32,149 nt of DNA from Candidatus Dadabacteria bacterium (GTDB lineage Bacteria > Desulfobacterota_D > UBA1144 > Nemesobacterales > Nemesobacteraceae). Location: the NCBI GenBank assembly GCA_022819805.1, contig JAJEGO010000034.1:1-32149 (forward strand), given 5' to 3'. Made by a program: the position numbers and the translations under genes. Position 1 is the first letter of the stretch. Each line of letters opens with the position of its first letter. A model generated the notes under the pieces. That model was not told where the DNA came from, searched no databases, and saw nothing but the letters and a program-made list of their open reading frames with translations. Shown piece after piece: positions 4,212 through 29,178 of the stretch.

Positions 4212-4566
4212 CTCTCCTTACCTCCTGTAAAATTTATGTTTCCAAAGTAAACGATCATTTTATAATCCCCCTAAAATGGACACAGAACATGATCAAACTC
4301 TCTATAAGCCTACTATAAAAGCAAGCCTAATTCAAGCGTTTTTTTCCTTAACGGAAAATCACACTATTCCTTAATACGCCCTTAACAATAAAGCACAGAG
4401 GCGGAAATGTCAAGGTTTTTTGACTCGGCAACCCAAAGGCTGGCGGCAATGGGGGCTTTCCAAACATCTCCTTTTTTCCATTGGGAAGACACGAGCCGAC
4501 ACGAAACACCCGTATTCTCCCGCCCGCAAGCAGCCGACACGAACCGGAAAAAACATCCTTCCCCTG
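4212..4566. other. Intergenic region between porin-like gene and conjugation region
   Basis: The first 200 bases are AT-rich and presumably hold the porin promoter on the minus strand, but I could not pick a convincing -35/-10 pair. From about 4400 the composition becomes GC-rich, like the transfer genes, so the change of origin may lie near 4400. Short frames on both strands here have no coding character. The stretch contains the direct repeat listed separately. Confidence 0.4.
4494..4543. repeat. 12-bp direct repeat AGCCGACACGAA, two copies 38 nt apart
   Basis: Identical copies lie at 4494-4505 and 4532-4543, in the gap at the left edge of the GC-rich conjugation region. Function is unknown. 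It could be a recombination or protein-binding site, or chance. Confidence 0.4.
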
Positions 4567-5235
4567 TCAGCCCCGCCCGAAAAGCCGAAGCGTGACAAAA
4601 GGTATCAGGCTAAGCGCGGGCGAGAGGGCAAGCTGCGTTGAGGCGCTTTTCCGAAGAGGCTCCTTCATCCCCATTACTCCCCGGTAAAGCGAAGCCGGGT
4701 CCCCGACAAGACCCCCGATCGCTTCTGAGAGATAAAAAACGTTTCTCGGGCTCAGAAGATACACAAGCAGGTTAAAAGCCAGGAATACAAGGACCCCCTT
4801 CGCCACTAGGCTTAGCGTCCGCCCCCAGACAAGCGAGTTAACGGCCCTCCTTGTGAGGTTCCCGCCGTAGTACCTTGCAAGTATCCCCCCGAGAATGACC
4901 GTCATCATGAGGCTTATCCCGAAACCGAAAAGAAAGACCAGGCACTTACCGAAAAAATCGGCCATCCCGCCGAAAGCGGGGATCACATCCTCCCACACTC
5001 CCCAGGCAAGCGGGAGAAGAAGCCCGAGAAACACCCCTTCCCAGAAACCGCTACGGAACCCCACCATGAAAAAAGTGAGCATCCCCCTCACGGTGAGGAA
5101 ATCAGAAGGTATGTCCTGCCCCGTGCGCTCTATTATATGGTACTGCTGTATCTCCGATATCGCGTCTATCAGGTTGCGCGGGGACGCGTGAGGAGAAGAC
5201 GATATGGGGACGAACCCTCCCCGTCCGCCGCTCAC
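4567..5235 (-). CDS. Polytopic membrane protein of unknown function, divergent from traD
   Basis: This 222-aa protein has a short cytosolic-looking N-terminus and about four hydrophobic segments (roughly residues 52-85, 95-120, 138-162 and a weaker one near 200). No family is recognised. GTG at 5235 is chosen because GAGGAG lies 7 nt upstream. That Shine-Dalgarno sequence is inside a hairpin (see separate entry). The gene is transcribed away from traD and matches the GC-rich composition of the transfer genes, so it is probably part of the conjugative element. It may be an accessory of the coupling protein, because the traD gene here encodes no membrane segment of its own. That link is inference only. 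Confidence 0.6.
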   Translation of the reverse strand: MSGGRGGFVPISSSPHASPRNLIDAISEIQQYHIIERTGQDIPSDFLTVRGMLTFFMVGFRSGFWEGVFLGLLLPLAWGVWEDVIPAFGGMADFFGKCLVFLFGFGISLMMTVILGGILARYYGGNLTRRAVNSLVWGRTLSLVAKGVLVFLAFNLLVYLLSPRNVFYLSEAIGGLVGDPASLYRGVMGMKEPLRKSASTQLALSPALSLIPFVTLRLFGRG

Positions 5236-15157: not shown

Positions 15158-15644
15158 GTTTTTGCGGGTCTGCACGGGAGCGCGGGGAACCGTTTTGGTT
15201 CTCTGCGTTTGTTCCGTTCTCGCGGGAGCTTATTTTTCAGGGATCCGTATTTCACTCAACGTATCTGGGTCTCTTCCCCACCGGGCGTTTCTCACGGCAA
15301 GGGGCGGGGAGATTTCCTGCGGGCCCCGAAGCATAGGGCTTTTCCGCCTGAACATGCGGAACCCTTACTGGGATTACGGAACGGTTTTCGCCAAGAGATT
15401 TGTCGGATGCCCGGGCGATACGCTCAGGACGCAAGGGGCCGGGTTTTACCTGAACGGCGAGAGAGTAGTCGTCGCAAGCAAACATGACTCAAAGGGAATA
15501 GCTGTCTCCAGTTTCCGGTTTGACGGGGTGATTCCCGCCGGCAGCTACTTCGTTCTGGGAGACGGGGAGAGAAGCTATGACTCGAGATACTGGGGGTTTG
15601 TCAGAAAATCATGGATAGTCGGGCGTGGATTTCCCTTGTTCTAG
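15150..15644 (+). CDS. S26-family conjugative signal peptidase (TraF of RP4 / TrhF type)
   Basis: The 164-aa product has an N-terminal membrane helix and the S26 catalytic pair: Ser 41 in NVSGSLPHR and Lys 82 in AKRFVGCPGD. The GDGERSYDSRYWGFV box follows near residue 137. This is the conjugation-specific branch (TraF of RP4, TrhF of H plasmids), which processes the pilin or another transfer protein in the periplasm. Its place between trbI and traW matches SXT/IncH layouts. It stops with TAG and overlaps traW by 34 nt. Confidence 0.85.
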   Translation: MNKFLRVCTGARGTVLVLCVCSVLAGAYFSGIRISLNVSGSLPHRAFLTARGGEISCGPRSIGLFRLNMRNPYWDYGTVFAKRFVGCPGDTLRTQGAGFYLNGERVVVASKHDSKGIAVSSFRFDGVIPAGSYFVLGDGERSYDSRYWGFVRKSWIVGRGFPLF

Positions 15645-16234
15645 TCTTGGTCTTTTTTATCCAGTTCTCCCCGATAGTGGCCCAGGATTCGGGTAAGGAT
15701 CTCGGGGTTCACGGGAAGCTCTACGAGATAGAGGAAGAGGACATGCTTTCCTATGTGAAGAGAAAGGCTGGGGAAATCGACATGCGGGCACTCCGGGAAA
15801 GCATGGAGAAAGAACTTGAGGAATCCTACGCAGAGCACTCTTTCGTTTCTCTCGACCTCCCCTCGGCTACTGAAGAGCGGGTACGTTATGTTGACCCTTC
15901 GGTGAATGTACGGAATCCGCTCTACGACCACACGGGGAAAATGATTTTCCCCGCAGGCGTCGTAAATCCCCTTGATCACATGCCACTTTCAAAAAGCATC
16001 TTGGTGCTGAAGGAGGACCAGATGAAAAAAGCGCTTGAGGAAACGGTCAAAAGAGGTGAAAGACCGATTCTGCTGCTCACCGACGGCGATACCCGAAGGG
16101 CTTCCTCGCTTGCGGGCCGGATGGTGTACAAGGCGACTCCTTTCATACTCAGAAGGCTTCAGATCAAAAAAGTTCCGTCGCTTATAGAACAGCAAGGTAG
16201 GATACTCAGGGTGAAAGAAATGTTTTTAGAATAA
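15611..16234 (+). CDS. traW: TraW, periplasmic pilus assembly protein
   Basis: The 207-aa protein (F TraW is about 210 aa) has a signal peptide (ISLVLVLVFFIQFSPIVAQ). It continues with the family pattern DLGVHGKLYEIEEEDML, then VRNPLYDHTGKMIFPAGVVNPLDHMPLS and a C-terminal ILLLTDGD...KKVPSLIEQQG segment. ATG 15611 lies inside the previous gene. TraW normally acts with TrbC and TraU, whose genes usually follow at once. Here traU is displaced by 2.8 kb of inserted sequence, and an oppositely oriented gene ends 15 nt after the traW stop. Confidence 0.92.
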   Translation: MDSRAWISLVLVLVFFIQFSPIVAQDSGKDLGVHGKLYEIEEEDMLSYVKRKAGEIDMRALRESMEKELEESYAEHSFVSLDLPSATEERVRYVDPSVNVRNPLYDHTGKMIFPAGVVNPLDHMPLSKSILVLKEDQMKKALEETVKRGERPILLLTDGDTRRASSLAGRMVYKATPFILRRLQIKKVPSLIEQQGRILRVKEMFLE

Positions 16235-16248
16235 TGCTGTGGCTCTAT

Positions 16249-16647
16249 TTATGGATTAGGATTAGCAACAAAGCGAGCATTCCTCGCTATTTCCAAAGCT
16301 AAAAGTTTTCTTGCATCCTTGCTAAGTGGCCAGCCTCTAATGTTGGCATGATTGGGATTATCGGCTGTCGGGTCGGCTACAACACTCAATAACTGTGATG
16401 TTACGTGAGAAACCCTCACATCAGCTCTGCCATGAAGCTTTCTGTTCGGCTGCCCAGAAACAATTTTATTTCCGATACCCCAAATTTCATTTTCGAAAAG
16501 ACTTAAATGGCGGGTAGTTGACAATTCTAGAGGAATTTCAGGGGGAATAAAGGCGTCTTGCTTGACCGTCTGGTCTGCTCTACGATACCACTTTGAGGAA
16601 GTGATATATCTAGCCAAAAGCTCATCAGGTAAAACGAAATCCGTCAT
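16249..16647 (-). CDS. Cassette protein C, 132 aa, unknown function
   Basis: Last gene of the minus-strand cassette. ATG 16647 overlaps the stop of the gene before it by 4 nt (ATGA), with GGAGAGG upstream. The protein is soluble with no membrane segment. Recognisable blocks are WYRRADQTVKQDAFIPP, LSTTRHLSLFENEIWGIG, KLHGRADVRVSHV and HANIRGWPLSKDARKLLALEIA. I recall similar small uncharacterised proteins in sporadic bacterial loci, but I know no function. Base composition is far more AT-rich than the tra genes. Confidence 0.75.
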   Translation of the reverse strand: MTDFVLPDELLARYITSSKWYRRADQTVKQDAFIPPEIPLELSTTRHLSLFENEIWGIGNKIVSGQPNRKLHGRADVRVSHVTSQLLSVVADPTADNPNHANIRGWPLSKDARKLLALEIARNARFVANPNP

Positions 16648-17144
16648 AAGACCTCTCCTGTAACCTCTCCAATTAAATCCAATAAATCGTAGGAAACAAA
16701 AAATGAAACAGGGTCCATTCCGTGCCTTCGCTTTGCACCAATTATAGCCGCATAATAAACCCCTCCTCTAGGGTTAATGCTGACTGAAACGACTCTAGAA
16801 GGGGACCGATACCATTCCAAAGAAATTGCTCCATCCGGTTCAGCACCTATTTCCGGAGATTCACTACCCCAAGGAAAAGATTCTAGAAAGATTTGAGCAT
16901 TCCATAAAACTTCTCTTGTTATAGCTTTAGCTTTCTCTCCATCCCATCCGTCCACTCCACATTCGTTAAAAGTCTTTTCCAGTTCCCAAAAAACACCTCT
17001 AGCTCCAAAACCCAAGATATTAGACTTTTGCAAATGAATAGATAATTCCCTCATTTGCTGGTCTATAAAATCACCAGCGGAAAGATTCTGACCAGAGCAA
17101 CCTGAAATAACAGCGGGAGTAGAAGACATTTCAATTGCTAACAT
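16644..17144 (-). CDS. Cassette protein B, 166 aa, unknown function
   Basis: The middle gene of the cassette starts one base after the TIGR04255 gene ends, with GGAGG 12 nt upstream, and overlaps gene C by 4 nt. The protein has a CGVDGWDG motif near residue 65, followed by a helix and PEIGAEPDGAISLEWY, VVSVSINPRGGVYYAAIIG and a C-terminal DLLDLIGEV helix. This DGWDG...PDG-x-x-x-L-E-W...YYA pattern recurs in small uncharacterised proteins of scattered distribution (recollection, not a search). No catalytic residues or signal peptide are evident. The tight coupling suggests a joint function with its neighbours. Confidence 0.75.
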   Translation of the reverse strand: MLAIEMSSTPAVISGCSGQNLSAGDFIDQQMRELSIHLQKSNILGFGARGVFWELEKTFNECGVDGWDGEKAKAITREVLWNAQIFLESFPWGSESPEIGAEPDGAISLEWYRSPSRVVSVSINPRGGVYYAAIIGAKRRHGMDPVSFFVSYDLLDLIGEVTGEVL

Positions 17145-17145
17145 C

Positions 17146-17901
17146 TTATTTACATTCCTCCAAGGCTTTCTTTGTTAAACTACTGAAGAAAACTTTATTT
17201 TTTACCCAACGCATTTCGTCCATATATTTAGAAATTCGTATTTCACTACAGTTAAGAGATTTTTGCATGAACACATCTATGTCCAACAGCAATCCAGTTT
17301 CTTGCTGAATCCTTTGAACAGTTTTTATAACATTAACCGAATAGGAAGTCCCCGGAACTTGCAGCACATCTCGATGCAAATAACCTGACAAAGGCCAGCT
17401 CAAACCTTCGATAGGTAGTGGCGGTTTCTTATAATAATCAGCTAATTCAATCTTTTGTCCCTGTCTGGTCGCTAGACAGTTTATAAAACGCAAACCAATT
17501 CTCCCAATTTCAGTTGGTTCTAACAGTTCACAGTAAATTTCCCAAAGCCTTAACGCTTCTTGGCTAAATTTTCCCCAATCTTCGTAAGGCTTTAGTCGAC
17601 TAAAAACAAATGAATCTTTATTAAACTGTACGACATAAAGACTATCTTCTGACTGGCACTTCAAACCAACATGGACAAGATCTTTAATTATATTGGTTCC
17701 AGTCTTGGGTGAAAGCTGAACTTCAGTTTCCTGCACCGTGTCATGCTTCGGGTAATCAGGCAATCGTTCTTCCAGCTGGCTTCGTAGACTCGACTCATCC
17801 CATTCAGTAGAAGAAACAACTCGAAGATCGAGAACGGCCTCAACGATTGGCGCTCGTGGTAAGTGAGGAAATTGTTCTTTTATATCAATAGGGGATTGCA
17901 T
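17146..17901 (-). CDS. TIGR04255-family protein, first gene of the inserted cassette
   Basis: The 251-aa product opens with the family signature FPHLPRAPIVEAVLDLRV and continues with the expected VQFNKDSFVFSRLKPYEDW block, a TEIGRIGLRFINCL strand, a PLSGYLHRDVLQ segment and an LDIDVFMQ segment near the C-terminus. TIGR04255 is described as sporadically distributed with no known function. ATG 17901 is chosen by the match to the family N-terminus. Its Shine-Dalgarno sequence is weak, and an overlapping out-of-frame ATG (MSDKDYAIPY) lies just upstream. It heads a three-gene set transcribed against the surrounding tra operon. Confidence 0.85.
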   Translation of the reverse strand: MQSPIDIKEQFPHLPRAPIVEAVLDLRVVSSTEWDESSLRSQLEERLPDYPKHDTVQETEVQLSPKTGTNIIKDLVHVGLKCQSEDSLYVVQFNKDSFVFSRLKPYEDWGKFSQEALRLWEIYCELLEPTEIGRIGLRFINCLATRQGQKIELADYYKKPPLPIEGLSWPLSGYLHRDVLQVPGTSYSVNVIKTVQRIQQETGLLLDIDVFMQKSLNCSEIRISKYMDEMRWVKNKVFFSSLTKKALEECK

Positions 17902-18241
17902 AATCTTTGTCGCTCATATCCCTTATCATTGTTTTTAAGTTTTTTCCAAATCCCCATTCTCCACAATATTCCCGACAAGCCTTTTTCTAACCGACTTCAT
18001 CGCCCGAAATCAAATGGAGATAAAAAATCACAGGATGATAGATATTCTGCTCGGTTCTGGGCAGATCCAACAACAAGCGTAAGATTACTTCCGGCCATAA
18101 TCTTCTTTTCCCTCAACTCTAGTGGAGAAAGCTTTTTAAGAACTTTTTTTCGTCAGTGACTCGCTCAGCATCAACTTAACAAGACTTCTTCTGCCTATTT
18201 CCTAGTAATTTTTGGGAAAATTAAACTTATCTTTACTCTAT
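17902..18241. other. AT-rich leader of the cassette (about 340 nt)
   Basis: The stretch lies between the cassette promoter and its first gene. Apart from the two tiny minus-strand frames noted separately I see no convincing gene. A plus-strand frame across it lacks coding character. The length suggests a regulated 5' leader or the relic of a fourth gene. Confidence 0.35.
17997..18098 (-). CDS. Possible 33-aa upstream ORF in the cassette leader
   Basis: MAGSNLTLVVGSAQ... opens at 18098 with GAGGGA about 9 nt upstream. Its TGA overlaps the ATG of a second tiny frame (18000-17935, MKSVRKRLVGNIV). Together they lie between the cassette promoter and the TIGR04255 gene. They may be leader peptides or a broken small gene. 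Confidence 0.25.
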   Translation of the reverse strand: MAGSNLTLVVGSAQNRAEYLSSCDFLSPFDFGR

Positions 18242-18270
18242 ATAATAGTACTAGAGTCTAATATTGACAA
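18242..18270 (-). promoter_or_regulatory. Sigma70-like promoter of the TIGR04255 cassette
   Basis: On the minus strand TTGTCA (18270-18265) and TATTAT (18247-18242) are separated by exactly 17 nt. Each matches the consensus at 5 of 6 positions. Transcription would start near 18235. Confidence 0.6.
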
Positions 18271-18405
18271 GGTCTTTTCATAATTTTTGAGTGTTTTGAT
18301 CCTCGATTGCTCTAATAGCATTGCCCGACAACGGAAGATTCGACTTCTCCGCATGCCAATACTGATGAAACAACGCAACGGTCCCCCGCAGCACACTCAA
18401 TCCAG

Positions 18406-18445: not shown

Positions 18446-18865
18446 ATGAAAACGCTTCTGCTCATCACCGCGCTTTTGATCTGCGCTTGGCCGACGGGTG
18501 TTTTTGCCGACACCCAGACTTCTGAAGTTCCCGGGGAACGTTCAAGGCAAAAAGCGGCGGTTTCGCGACCCGCCGACGCGCCCAGCGCCAAATCAAAAGC
18601 CTTCATACACCCGGATACCGGAGAAATCCTGACCCGCGAGCAGTGGCAGGCCCTCGGCCTCGAAAACGACGAAGCCGAGGCGGTTACGCGCTCCTCTTCC
18701 GACGCCCCCGAACCGGAGAGTACCCAGGCGGTGCTCCAGGGAAGGCAGATCGATCTTGGAAACGGAGACTACGTCATAGTGGTCGACGCTCCCGAATCCG
18801 AGATGGTCGAAACCAAAGTGTGGTTCGACGAGAAGGGAAAAGCCCATATCAGATGCAACCACTAA
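18446..18865 (+). CDS. Small secreted protein, 139 aa, unknown function
   Basis: ATG 18446 is chosen because it opens a standard signal peptide (MKTLLLITALLICAWPTGVFA, cut before DTQT). The frame is open further upstream but without coding character. The mature protein has a polar low-complexity stretch, then HPDTGEILTREQWQALGLEND, and a compact C-terminal part, QIDLGNGDYVIVVDAPESE...VWFDEKGKAHIRCNH. No family is recognised. Composition is closer to the tra genes than to the adjacent cassette. Its position between the insert and traU suggests it is element cargo or part of the same insertion. Confidence 0.6.
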   Translation: MKTLLLITALLICAWPTGVFADTQTSEVPGERSRQKAAVSRPADAPSAKSKAFIHPDTGEILTREQWQALGLENDEAEAVTRSSSDAPEPESTQAVLQGRQIDLGNGDYVIVVDAPESEMVETKVWFDEKGKAHIRCNH

Positions 18866-18976: not shown

Positions 18977-19005
18977 TTGCCTTATCTTCTCTTTTGTATT
19001 ACATT
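18977..19005 (+). promoter_or_regulatory. Candidate restart promoter for traU-traG
   Basis: TTGCCT and TACATT are 17 nt apart, just upstream of traU. The match is modest (4 of 6 each). A local promoter would be useful because the insertion separates these genes from the upstream operon. Confidence 0.3.
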
Positions 19006-19014
19006 ATAGTTATT

Positions 19015-20004
19015 ATGTCCCGAAAAAAAGTCCTACTTGACTTCCTCCTGAGCGCTTTGCTCGGGGGTGCCGCAAGAGACGCTGCCGCCGGGACAAAATG
19101 CGGTGGGAGGTTCTTTAACCCGGTCTCAGACGTCGACTGGAAGGCGATGTTTCCGATAAAGATAGGAGGAGTGGCCGTAACGCCCGGGGAAGGGACGGAC
19201 ACGGTAAACCGGTTTCCGCTCTGTTTCTGCGGATCCCCCGTCCCGCGCGTCGGGATAAAGGTCTCGTTCTGGGAACCGGTGAAGCTTGTTGAGGTCGTAA
19301 GGCACCCGGGATGCTTTCCTTCGCTCGGGGGCCGCAAGCTCCCCCTCCCGTCCTTCGCCATGGCGGGAGCGTACGGCGAGGGAGGCGGGCAGCGGGGTGA
19401 CAGGACTTCCTTTCTTCACGTCCACCACTTTCTCTACCCTGTGTTCTCGGTGCTTAACCTTTTCTCAAGTTTCGGTTGCATGACCCAGGGAGGATTCGAT
19501 CTCGCCTACCTGACGGCGTTTGACCCTCTCTGGAGCAACGACGAGCTCTCGTTTCTGCTGCATCCCGAGATAGCGCTCGTCGCGAACCCCGTTGCCCAGG
19601 CCTCGTGCGCCGCGGACGCCGTGGCCGCCACGGGGGGCTTCGGGATAAACGAGCTTTTCTGGTGCGCCGGATCCTGGGGAAGCGTCTATCCGCTCACGGG
19701 GAACAACGGGGCCACGGGAGACCTCCCGGCCGTCTATGCGCTCTCGGCCGTAAAGCTGCTCGCGAAACTCCACAACGAACTGCTGGCGTTTAAGACCACG
19801 GGAGAGGGCTCTCTCTGCGCGGCCCGCCCCCATCGCGTAATAGTCAAGGACCAGTACAAGCTTCAGCTTGCGTTTCCCAAGAACACACAGGCGTTTCCGA
19901 TAGGGAGGGTGACGGCGCGCTGGGCCCCCGGCAAGTGGTATCCCGCGCGTGGAGAGGACTGGGTATGGGTGCTATGGAGAAAAAAAGACTGCTGCCTGCT
20001 CTGA
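19015..20004 (+). CDS. traU: TraU, mating-pair / pilus assembly protein
   Basis: The 329-aa protein (F TraU is about 330 aa) starts at ATG 19015 with a short signal peptide (LLDFLLSALLGGAARDAAAG). Family blocks are visible: CGGRFFNPVSDVDWKAMFPIKIGG at the start of the mature part, FCFCGSP-like FPLCFCGSPVPRVGIKVSFWEP, HHFLYPVFSVLN and GSWGSVYPLTG. As I recall the family, the first block usually reads D-x-C-W-x-C-x-F-P. Here both cysteines are replaced (D-V-D-W-K-A-M-F-P). TraU is periplasmic and acts with TraW and TrbC. No clear Shine-Dalgarno sequence is seen. It overlaps trbC by 40 nt. Confidence 0.9.
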   Translation: MSRKKVLLDFLLSALLGGAARDAAAGTKCGGRFFNPVSDVDWKAMFPIKIGGVAVTPGEGTDTVNRFPLCFCGSPVPRVGIKVSFWEPVKLVEVVRHPGCFPSLGGRKLPLPSFAMAGAYGEGGGQRGDRTSFLHVHHFLYPVFSVLNLFSSFGCMTQGGFDLAYLTAFDPLWSNDELSFLLHPEIALVANPVAQASCAADAVAATGGFGINELFWCAGSWGSVYPLTGNNGATGDLPAVYALSAVKLLAKLHNELLAFKTTGEGSLCAARPHRVIVKDQYKLQLAFPKNTQAFPIGRVTARWAPGKWYPARGEDWVWVLWRKKDCCLL

Positions 20005-28190: not shown

Positions 28191-28403
28191 CTATTTTTCG
28201 TCAGCACTATCTTCGTTCGGTGGCTCCGGTGGTGATTCCTCGGCTGATTCCTCGGCTGATTCCTCTTCAGCTTTTGGTTGGTATCCGTACGTAACAGGTC
28301 CGTCCAGGATGGACTCATCCGTCTTAGGCGATTTGGGCTGATAACCCCTCTCGGTTGTTTCGATGTCTGAATTATCTGTCCGTGGTTTTTTATCTTGACT
28401 TAT
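28191..28403 (-). CDS. Small acidic protein, 70 aa, with apparent AUA start
   Basis: The frame is open from 28403 to TAG at 28191 and has coding character: a repeated GYQPK motif (ERGYQPKSPKT and YGYQPKAEEES), a run of ESAE repeats and an acidic proline-rich end. No ATG, GTG or TTG is available. A perfect AAGGAG (28416-28411) lies 7 nt before ATA at 28403, giving (M)SQDKKPRTDN.... The start therefore looks like a natural AUA initiator or a mutated ATG. The gene overlaps the end of the DUF6338-like gene by 14 nt, so the two form a coupled pair. I recall small GYQP-containing proteins beside DUF6338 genes elsewhere, but have not verified it. Confidence 0.55.
   Translation of the reverse strand: MSQDKKPRTDNSDIETTERGYQPKSPKTDESILDGPVTYGYQPKAEEESAEESAEESPPEPPNEDSADEK
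28234..28265. repeat. 12-bp tandem repeat (about 2.7 units) coding for ESAE units
   Basis: GATTCCTCGGCT is repeated at 28234 and 28246 with a partial third unit. It lies in frame within the acidic protein gene, so unit number can change without a frameshift. Confidence 0.7.
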
Positions 28404-29178
28404 TTTTTCGCTCCTTAGACCAAAGTTCTATCGTTTGAATCTGGCCTCCTACAATAAGAATACCTTTTCCATCCTCTGGAATACAATTGCTATTTTCATC
28501 AATTTTACAAACAGTCTCGATATAGACATCCCGCTCGGTTGGATCGGAAGATACAAAGGAATTTTTCCCAAGAAAACCTGCTATTTTGGTTCCGTCTTTT
28601 AAGGTAACAAGAACTTTCTGTTCACCCATGTTGTTGAACTTCCAGTCCCATGCAGATGGAATAGGATGTGCTGGGTTCAAGCCAATACATGTACCAACAC
28701 ACCTCAAAAAACGATAAAAAAATTGTTTCTGGACATCGTACCCCAGCAAAAACCCCGAAATTGCCGGCAACACAAACACAAGCAAAAGCCAGCCCAGCCA
28801 TTTTCCCTGGTCAGGCCCCTGGAGATACGGAACGGGGTTTACCACAAGCAGCACCAACGCATAATAGACACCGGAAACCGCCAAATAGGATAAAACAGGA
28901 TGCGGCGGGTTGAGTCTGCCGGTCAGGAACTGCGAACGCACAAACAAAATAATCATACCGGGAACCAACAATCCGATTACGGAGTAAAAGTTCTCCGGCG
29001 TGAACAGGGAAAGCGAAGATGATTGAGCCCAACCGCTAGTCGGAGACACAGTGATCAAAATCAGACTCAAAAATGAACCCAATAACAATAAATAAATACG
29101 TCGCATAACAACGGTGGCTAGTATTAATCGTGAAACAGGTTTCCAGATTGTAGTCAGATTTTTACGTGAAAAAACCAT
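28390..29178 (-). CDS. DUF6338-like membrane protein
   Basis: The 262-aa protein has four or so N-terminal hydrophobic segments (LLLLGSFLSLILITV, FYSVIGLLVPGMIILFV, YLAVSGVYYALVLLVV, WLGWLLLVFVLPAISGFLLG). A cytosolic C-terminal domain reads HPIPSAWDWKFNN...VLVTLKDGTKIAGFLGKNSFVSSDPTERDVYIETV. This P-x-A-W-D...V-T-L-K-D-G...S-F-x-S-S-x-P-x-x-R-D-x-Y pattern is that of DUF6338, whose function is unknown. Start is uncertain: ATG 29178 or ATG 29106 (MRRIYLLLLG, signal-like); neither has a clear Shine-Dalgarno sequence. It is AT-rich compared with its neighbours, suggesting transfer. Confidence 0.75.
   Translation of the reverse strand: MVFSRKNLTTIWKPVSRLILATVVMRRIYLLLLGSFLSLILITVSPTSGWAQSSSLSLFTPENFYSVIGLLVPGMIILFVRSQFLTGRLNPPHPVLSYLAVSGVYYALVLLVVNPVPYLQGPDQGKWLGWLLLVFVLPAISGFLLGYDVQKQFFYRFLRCVGTCIGLNPAHPIPSAWDWKFNNMGEQKVLVTLKDGTKIAGFLGKNSFVSSDPTERDVYIETVCKIDENSNCIPEDGKGILIVGGQIQTIELWSKERKNKSR

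Follow-up and report, generated by a model that had tools for sequence, protein, structure and literature searches.

An AT-rich, TIGR04255-led cassette lodged between traW and traU of a Dadabacteria conjugation operon is best read as one type of three-part toxin-antitoxin-like system

The conjugation operon of the window analyzed here (the whole stretch of 32,149 nucleotides of contig JAJEGO010000034.1, from Candidatus Dadabacteria bacterium) is interrupted between traW and traU by three minus-strand genes, called A, B and C from first to third (Table 1). According to the coordinates of the open reading frames, A and B are separated by a single nucleotide, B and C overlap by 4 nt, and the GC content of the insert (0.399) is much lower than that of the DNA upstream (0.577) or downstream (0.614). 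The original prediction had noticed these junctions and this composition, and both were confirmed. It had also held that traW and traU are normally adjacent and are split here. The insert does lie between the two flanking genes, but so does a small gene that is kept in the traW-traU interval of the relatives examined in the genus, so that here, with or without the cassette, traW and traU are no immediate neighbors in the strict sense. Much of the genus has the tra operon in common with the window, as found by mapping the window proteins onto the relatives. A second AT-rich minus-strand gene (DUF6338, 28390-29178) lies 3' of traG in the window, and a DUF6338 homologue is also present near traG in genome G019; the 3' end of traG thus looks like a further cargo site.

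Table 1. Features in and around the traW-traU interval of the window
Feature	Position	Strand	Description and basis
traW	15611-16234	+	TIGR02743, E = 1.1e-29, under the curated cut-off; stop 6 nt before the unit
Mobile unit (promoter, leader, A-B-C)	16240-18276	-	blastn against copies elsewhere
Gene C	16249-16647	-	132 aa; candidate toxin/effector, gene 3 of the cassette
Gene B	16644-17144	-	166 aa; WDG...EPDG domain; candidate antitoxin/adaptor, gene 2
Gene A	17146-17901	-	251 aa; TIGR04255 family; candidate shared control component, gene 1
5' leader, about 340 nt, conserved	17902-18241	-	alignment of copies
Promoter-like site TTGTCA-17-TATTAT	18242-18270	-	scan; at the outer edge of the unit
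hipA 3' remnant, about 30 codons	18287-18382	-	blastn, 86% to hipA of L040/L041; in-frame match to the HipA tail
Small gene, signal-peptide-like start	18446-18865	+	tblastn matches in L025, L031, L038-L042
traU	18994-20004	+	PF06834, E = 5.2e-98

The cassette is a sharply bounded unit. Copies in G021 and G022 (loci L025 and L026) are 86% identical to the window at the nucleotide level over exactly positions 16240-18276, and the copy of L028 is 78% identical to the unit (blastn). By nucleotide comparison, the two ends correspond to the -35 box and to a point 9 nt beyond the stop codon of C. The adjoining stretch 18287-18382 lies outside the cassette and is what remains of the 3' end of a hipA gene. 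The cassette had also been credited with a promoter of its own. The site in question comes from a promoter scan that as a whole (4 sites against 3.6 expected) was not above chance, but it is retained in the aligned copies of G021, G022 and G020. The leader that follows the site matched no Rfam family, and the covariation found when its RNA was folded is weak and not convincing. The dN/dS ratios of the window copy relative to its relatives are 0.18-0.26 for A, 0.18-0.27 for B and 0.14-0.17 for C, comparable to those of traW; all three genes are under purifying selection. Copies with exactly the same ends, together with these ratios, show that the A-B-C unit of the window is more than a chance arrangement. 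A transposon or integron cassette was considered and rejected, since the unit has no recombinase and the boundaries of independent copies share no terminal or target repeats. No target duplication was found at the ends of the unit.

That the cassette is cargo inserted in a conjugation operon, as had been proposed, is borne out by the relatives, whose gap has almost no content or a different cargo. A-B-C is missing from the traW-traU interval of five related tra loci in which this interval is intact (L038-L042), and an ordinary tra component was rejected on this ground. G020 has almost nothing on the traW side of the gap. The slot of G026 and G027 contains, in antisense, hipB, hipA and genes for an AbiLi-type ATPase and an AbiLii/RloB protein: the slot, the orientation and the kind of cargo are those of the window, although the proteins are unrelated. 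RTX-repeat proteins occupy the slot in G018 and G025, and G022 has there a cassette of three genes, distantly related, whose last gene is C-like and which faces traW tail to tail, as the cassette of the window does. The latter cassette (L188 2345-4360, C77) is antisense, encodes proteins of 232 and 303 aa followed by the C-like protein, and adjoins traW (4479-5102, minus strand); its gene 1 was not recognized as TIGR04255, and a similar cassette is found in G015 (L189 1592-3480). The hipA remnant of the window and the differing cargo of the relatives indicate that the slot is a cargo site with turnover. The remnant, together with the complete genes of G026 and G027, suggests that an ancestor of the window carried hipBA in the slot. 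A short frame of G020 (L042 12009-12155), which terminates in DHLKTVPLTA, resembles the end of HipA and is perhaps a second hipA remnant.

Within the phylum, B was detected in ten further genomes, and tra loci were located in relatives. A, B and C are kept together in five congeners (G021, G022, G017, G020 and G023) and also, at about 30% identity, in G001, G002 and G004. Their order is intact at 8 of the 8 other Dadabacteria A-B-C loci, in agreement with the compact operon originally described. With this order kept in Dadabacteria and the gap of the relatives nearly empty or filled otherwise, neither a lack of association between A and the B-C pair nor a role of the three as ordinary tra genes was found outright. 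In G021, G022 and G017 the cassette lies beyond the end of traG, adjoining duplicated traG fragments, and in G020 and G023 it lies away from tra. In G021 and G022, the cassette is flanked by fragments of a duplicated traG 3' end, with AAA/DUF4143 ATPase genes beside it; one fragment of this kind occurs in G017 as well (L025 9441-13362, L026 5737-10592, L027 13071). C of G017 is interrupted by a stop codon, A and B being intact there, and G019 carries B without C. The orphan B of G019 (L053 3080-5390) is located inside the tra operon, between traN and traF, beside homologues of the PD-T4-4 defense pair.

Outside the phylum, species genomes were scanned with the B alignment, leading to 13 loci in which A, B and C were then located by local profile searches. 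The three genes occur in order and on one strand in seven phyla, represented by Dadabacteria, Nitrospiraceae, Omnitrophota, Phycisphaerales, Verrucomicrobiia, Syntrophaceae and Atribacteria. An Armatimonadetes locus (L047) has B and C without A, its B bearing an N-terminal HTH_17 domain, and a Rubritalea locus (L055) has B alone. Spread of B and C by plasmids or phages was considered and rejected: neither protein found a match in the PLSDB plasmids or in IMG/VR, and B found none in phage records. One viral protein, unnamed, matched C (A0A9E7QQI2, E = 1e-3).

Neither B nor C matches a Pfam or NCBIfam model above threshold, and solved relatives sought by sequence gave none that is convincing. 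No helix-turn-helix or other DNA-binding domain was found in the B of the window. The AlphaFold model of C is confident (pLDDT 93), and a Foldseek search against the PDB returned no significant solved fold. An ADP-ribosyltransferase fold was rejected as an assignment, the top PDB matches, to a tRNA 2'-phosphotransferase (E = 0.58) and to AvrPphF ORF2 (E = 0.69), being not significant and a lead only. Four residues, R13, S43, R46 and H100, are invariant in the alignment of C and are candidates for a catalytic or binding site.

Gene A, predicted from the start to belong to TIGR04255, is indeed a member of this family, scoring 112.5 bits over residues 14-249 against a curated cut-off of 30. It has no Pfam match, hence no SecB match by Pfam, and its AlphaFold model (pLDDT 80) is a two-repeat alpha/beta structure for which Foldseek gives weak TBP-like matches. 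The family was sampled in the phyla of three genomes that had been found with the B alignment. It was present in 22/247, 41/246 and 34/198 genomes of the three samples (about 9-17%), which agrees with the patchy distribution anticipated and with the name of the NCBIfam model, sporadTIGR04255. At 72 of 93 TIGR04255 loci, nearly all from these samples, two operonic genes follow downstream, the commonest junction to gene 2 being a 4-nt overlap. All 17 of the Dadabacteria TIGR04255 loci are such triads: 9 are A-B-C, 2 contain a divergent B/C pair, 2 HEPN, 2 DUF7689, 1 PIN and 1 another type.

The third genes of these triads include known toxins. Among 71 gene 3 proteins, Pfam recognized PIN (7), DUF7689 (7), HEPN (3), PemK (2), HicA (2) and zeta (1), so that recognized toxins make up only about one fifth of the proteins; among 69 gene 2 proteins, a minority was matched, nearly always by helix-turn-helix families. 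In the annotated Vibrio parahaemolyticus plasmid CP063527, a TIGR04255 gene, a hypothetical gene and a zeta toxin gene stand in a row. As a control, no toxin family appears among the upstream-gene families listed (25 of 151), so that single toxin hits may occur among the rest, and the gene 3 proteins match no upstream gene. A family without Pfam match, characterized by the motif QGDI ... SQDCD, recurs as gene 3 beside TIGR04255 (L062, L075, L087, L105, L115, L116, L128, L135, L137, L141, L156 and others) and is a candidate new toxin family.

Nearly every gene 2 cluster has a single gene 3 cluster as its partner, and vice versa. The link that had been expected between TIGR04255 and the two other genes of the window proved to be partly correct: C is accompanied by B in 18 of the 18 sampled cassettes that contain C, but TIGR04255 is not tied to this pair, since B/C-type pairs, divergent ones included, account for about 25 of the 71 sampled cassettes and the remainder are other gene pairs. 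The gene 2 families of most different types have no detectable kinship to each other, which makes A the component common to the types. The types form clusters in a tree of A, on which partners change 14 times compared with 44.5 times after shuffling. Partners are nevertheless exchanged: the B/C clade encloses the DUF7689 clade, and behind near-identical A genes, gene 3 is in some cases PemK and in others a QGDI protein. At L075 and L077, A is near-identical, the gene 2 family is shared and gene 3 is different.

We propose, with a probability of roughly two in three, that A-B-C is a tripartite toxin-antitoxin-type cargo cassette, with C as toxin, B as antitoxin and A as shared control. It is supported by a mobile block of the size of a transcription unit, a gene order maintained across phyla and purifying selection, and also by the pairing of gene 2 and gene 3 families, the known toxins found as gene 3 elsewhere and the exchange of partners behind related A genes. 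In addition, HipBA and AbiLi/AbiLii share the slot in relatives. From the position of the genes in the cassette we infer that C is toxic and that B neutralizes it; the role of A is likewise inferred. The occurrence of B without C in G019 and Rubritalea and the stop codon in C of G017 are what a costly C would lead one to expect, although the cases are few. As in type II toxin-antitoxin systems, B and C are small, adjacent, co-oriented genes conserved as a pair. In contrast to such systems, C does not belong to a recognized toxin family, whereas its counterpart in sister TIGR04255 cassettes does, and B of the window lacks the DNA-binding domain of an antitoxin, which its relative in L047 possesses. 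That neither the toxin family of C nor an antitoxin fold in B is recognized counts against the proposal, as do the lack of a DNA-binding domain in the B of the window and the small share of recognized toxins among gene 3 proteins. L047, where B and C occur without A, speaks against it too: A is not always needed, and the HTH_17 domain of that B suggests that another domain can take on the task of A.

The closest parallel is offered by toxin-antitoxin-chaperone (TAC) systems, in which a SecB-like chaperone protects the antitoxin and serves HigBA, HicAB and MqsRA pairs (PMC5105189). In CmdTAC, the chaperone detects the capsid protein of a phage and sets free an ADP-ribosyltransferase (PMC11618068); the pairs named in these two papers are HigBA, HicAB, MqsRA and CmdTA. 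Like these systems, the cassette is a three-gene operon whose third component is common to several toxin-antitoxin families. It is not a SecB-type TAC: the third component of TAC is SecB-like, while A has no SecB match and weak TBP-like structural matches, and the order third component-antitoxin-toxin differs from that of the best-known TAC systems, a further point against the toxin-antitoxin reading. On the model of CmdTAC and other TAC systems, A would maintain B in a state in which it silences C; if A were lost or titrated, for example when a phage infects the cell or the element disappears, C would be set free. A could work like a TAC chaperone although no relationship to SecB is detectable.

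An anti-phage defense system other than toxin-antitoxin, in which A would sense, B adapt and C execute (for instance as a nucleic-acid enzyme), selection being for defense and not for maintenance, is an unlikely alternative with several observations in its favor. B and C are distant kin of the PADLOC candidate pair PDC-M32: 14 of 14 members of B match the C-terminal part of PDC-M32A (best E = 1.3e-5), over only about residues 270-337 of 375, and 5 of 12 members of C match PDC-M32B (best 1.8e-5), the C of the window itself having no match. PDC-M32 members L066-L068 stand in type I restriction operons, beside hsdM or hsdS (named by eye from the sequence), the B of L055 lies within a type I restriction locus, and the slot also holds defense genes in relatives. 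Nevertheless, PDC-M32 is itself a computational candidate, and PDC-M32A differs from B in its N-terminal region and has no TIGR04255 partner; as full-length PDC-M32A and PDC-M32B are not matched, the cassette is not a PDC-M32. Moreover, classical toxins end other TIGR04255 cassettes, and housekeeping genes predominate immediately upstream of TIGR04255 loci, restriction genes being few there, so that the enrichment in defense islands envisaged at the outset is weak in this sample. A stabilization- or defense-like nature, as originally suggested, is upheld, but the unspecified defense module yields to a toxin-antitoxin-type cassette, which is the better reading because other TIGR04255 pairs often end in recognized toxins.

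Far less probable is an accessory function in conjugation or maintenance of the element, the genes regulating or aiding transfer. The location inside the tra operon here, and beside traG in G021 and G022, would fit, but this idea is largely refuted by the antisense orientation, by the fact that most relatives sharing these tra genes lack the cassette in their tra operon, and by its occurrence far from tra in G020 and in lineages with no tra nearby. Least tenable is a selfish or decaying insertion without present function, which the AT-rich composition, the patchy occurrence and the broken C of G017 might evoke and which is contradicted by the dN/dS ratios and by an order intact across several phyla.

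The toxin-antitoxin-type reading of A-B-C extends beyond this locus. The best interpretation is that of a broad class of toxin-antitoxin-like cassettes, each in three parts and headed by TIGR04255, to which the cassette of the window belongs as one type; this class-level pattern is more interesting than the single cassette. Within the open-licence literature searched, no published description of the A-B-C cassette was found, TIGR04255 and DUF7689 are not named, which is weak evidence of novelty, and no mention was found of TIGR04255 as the gene that recurrently heads toxin-like triads; the NCBIfam model has no assigned function. More tentatively, a large and so far undescribed class of tripartite toxin-antitoxin systems may have TIGR04255 as its hub. 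A would then be a non-SecB control component or sensor licensing many unrelated pairs, and C a toxin with a new fold, perhaps responding to phage infection in the way CmdTAC does by means of CmdC.

The traW-traU slot provides a clear example of cargo replaced stepwise inside a conjugation operon. With TIGR04255 as the common first gene, what was an orphan family would define a class of three-part toxin-antitoxin systems that is open to testing, and A would represent a second design, without detectable relationship to SecB, for a third component that serves many pairs. This reading predicts new toxins (C, DUF7689 and the QGDI proteins), together with their partners.
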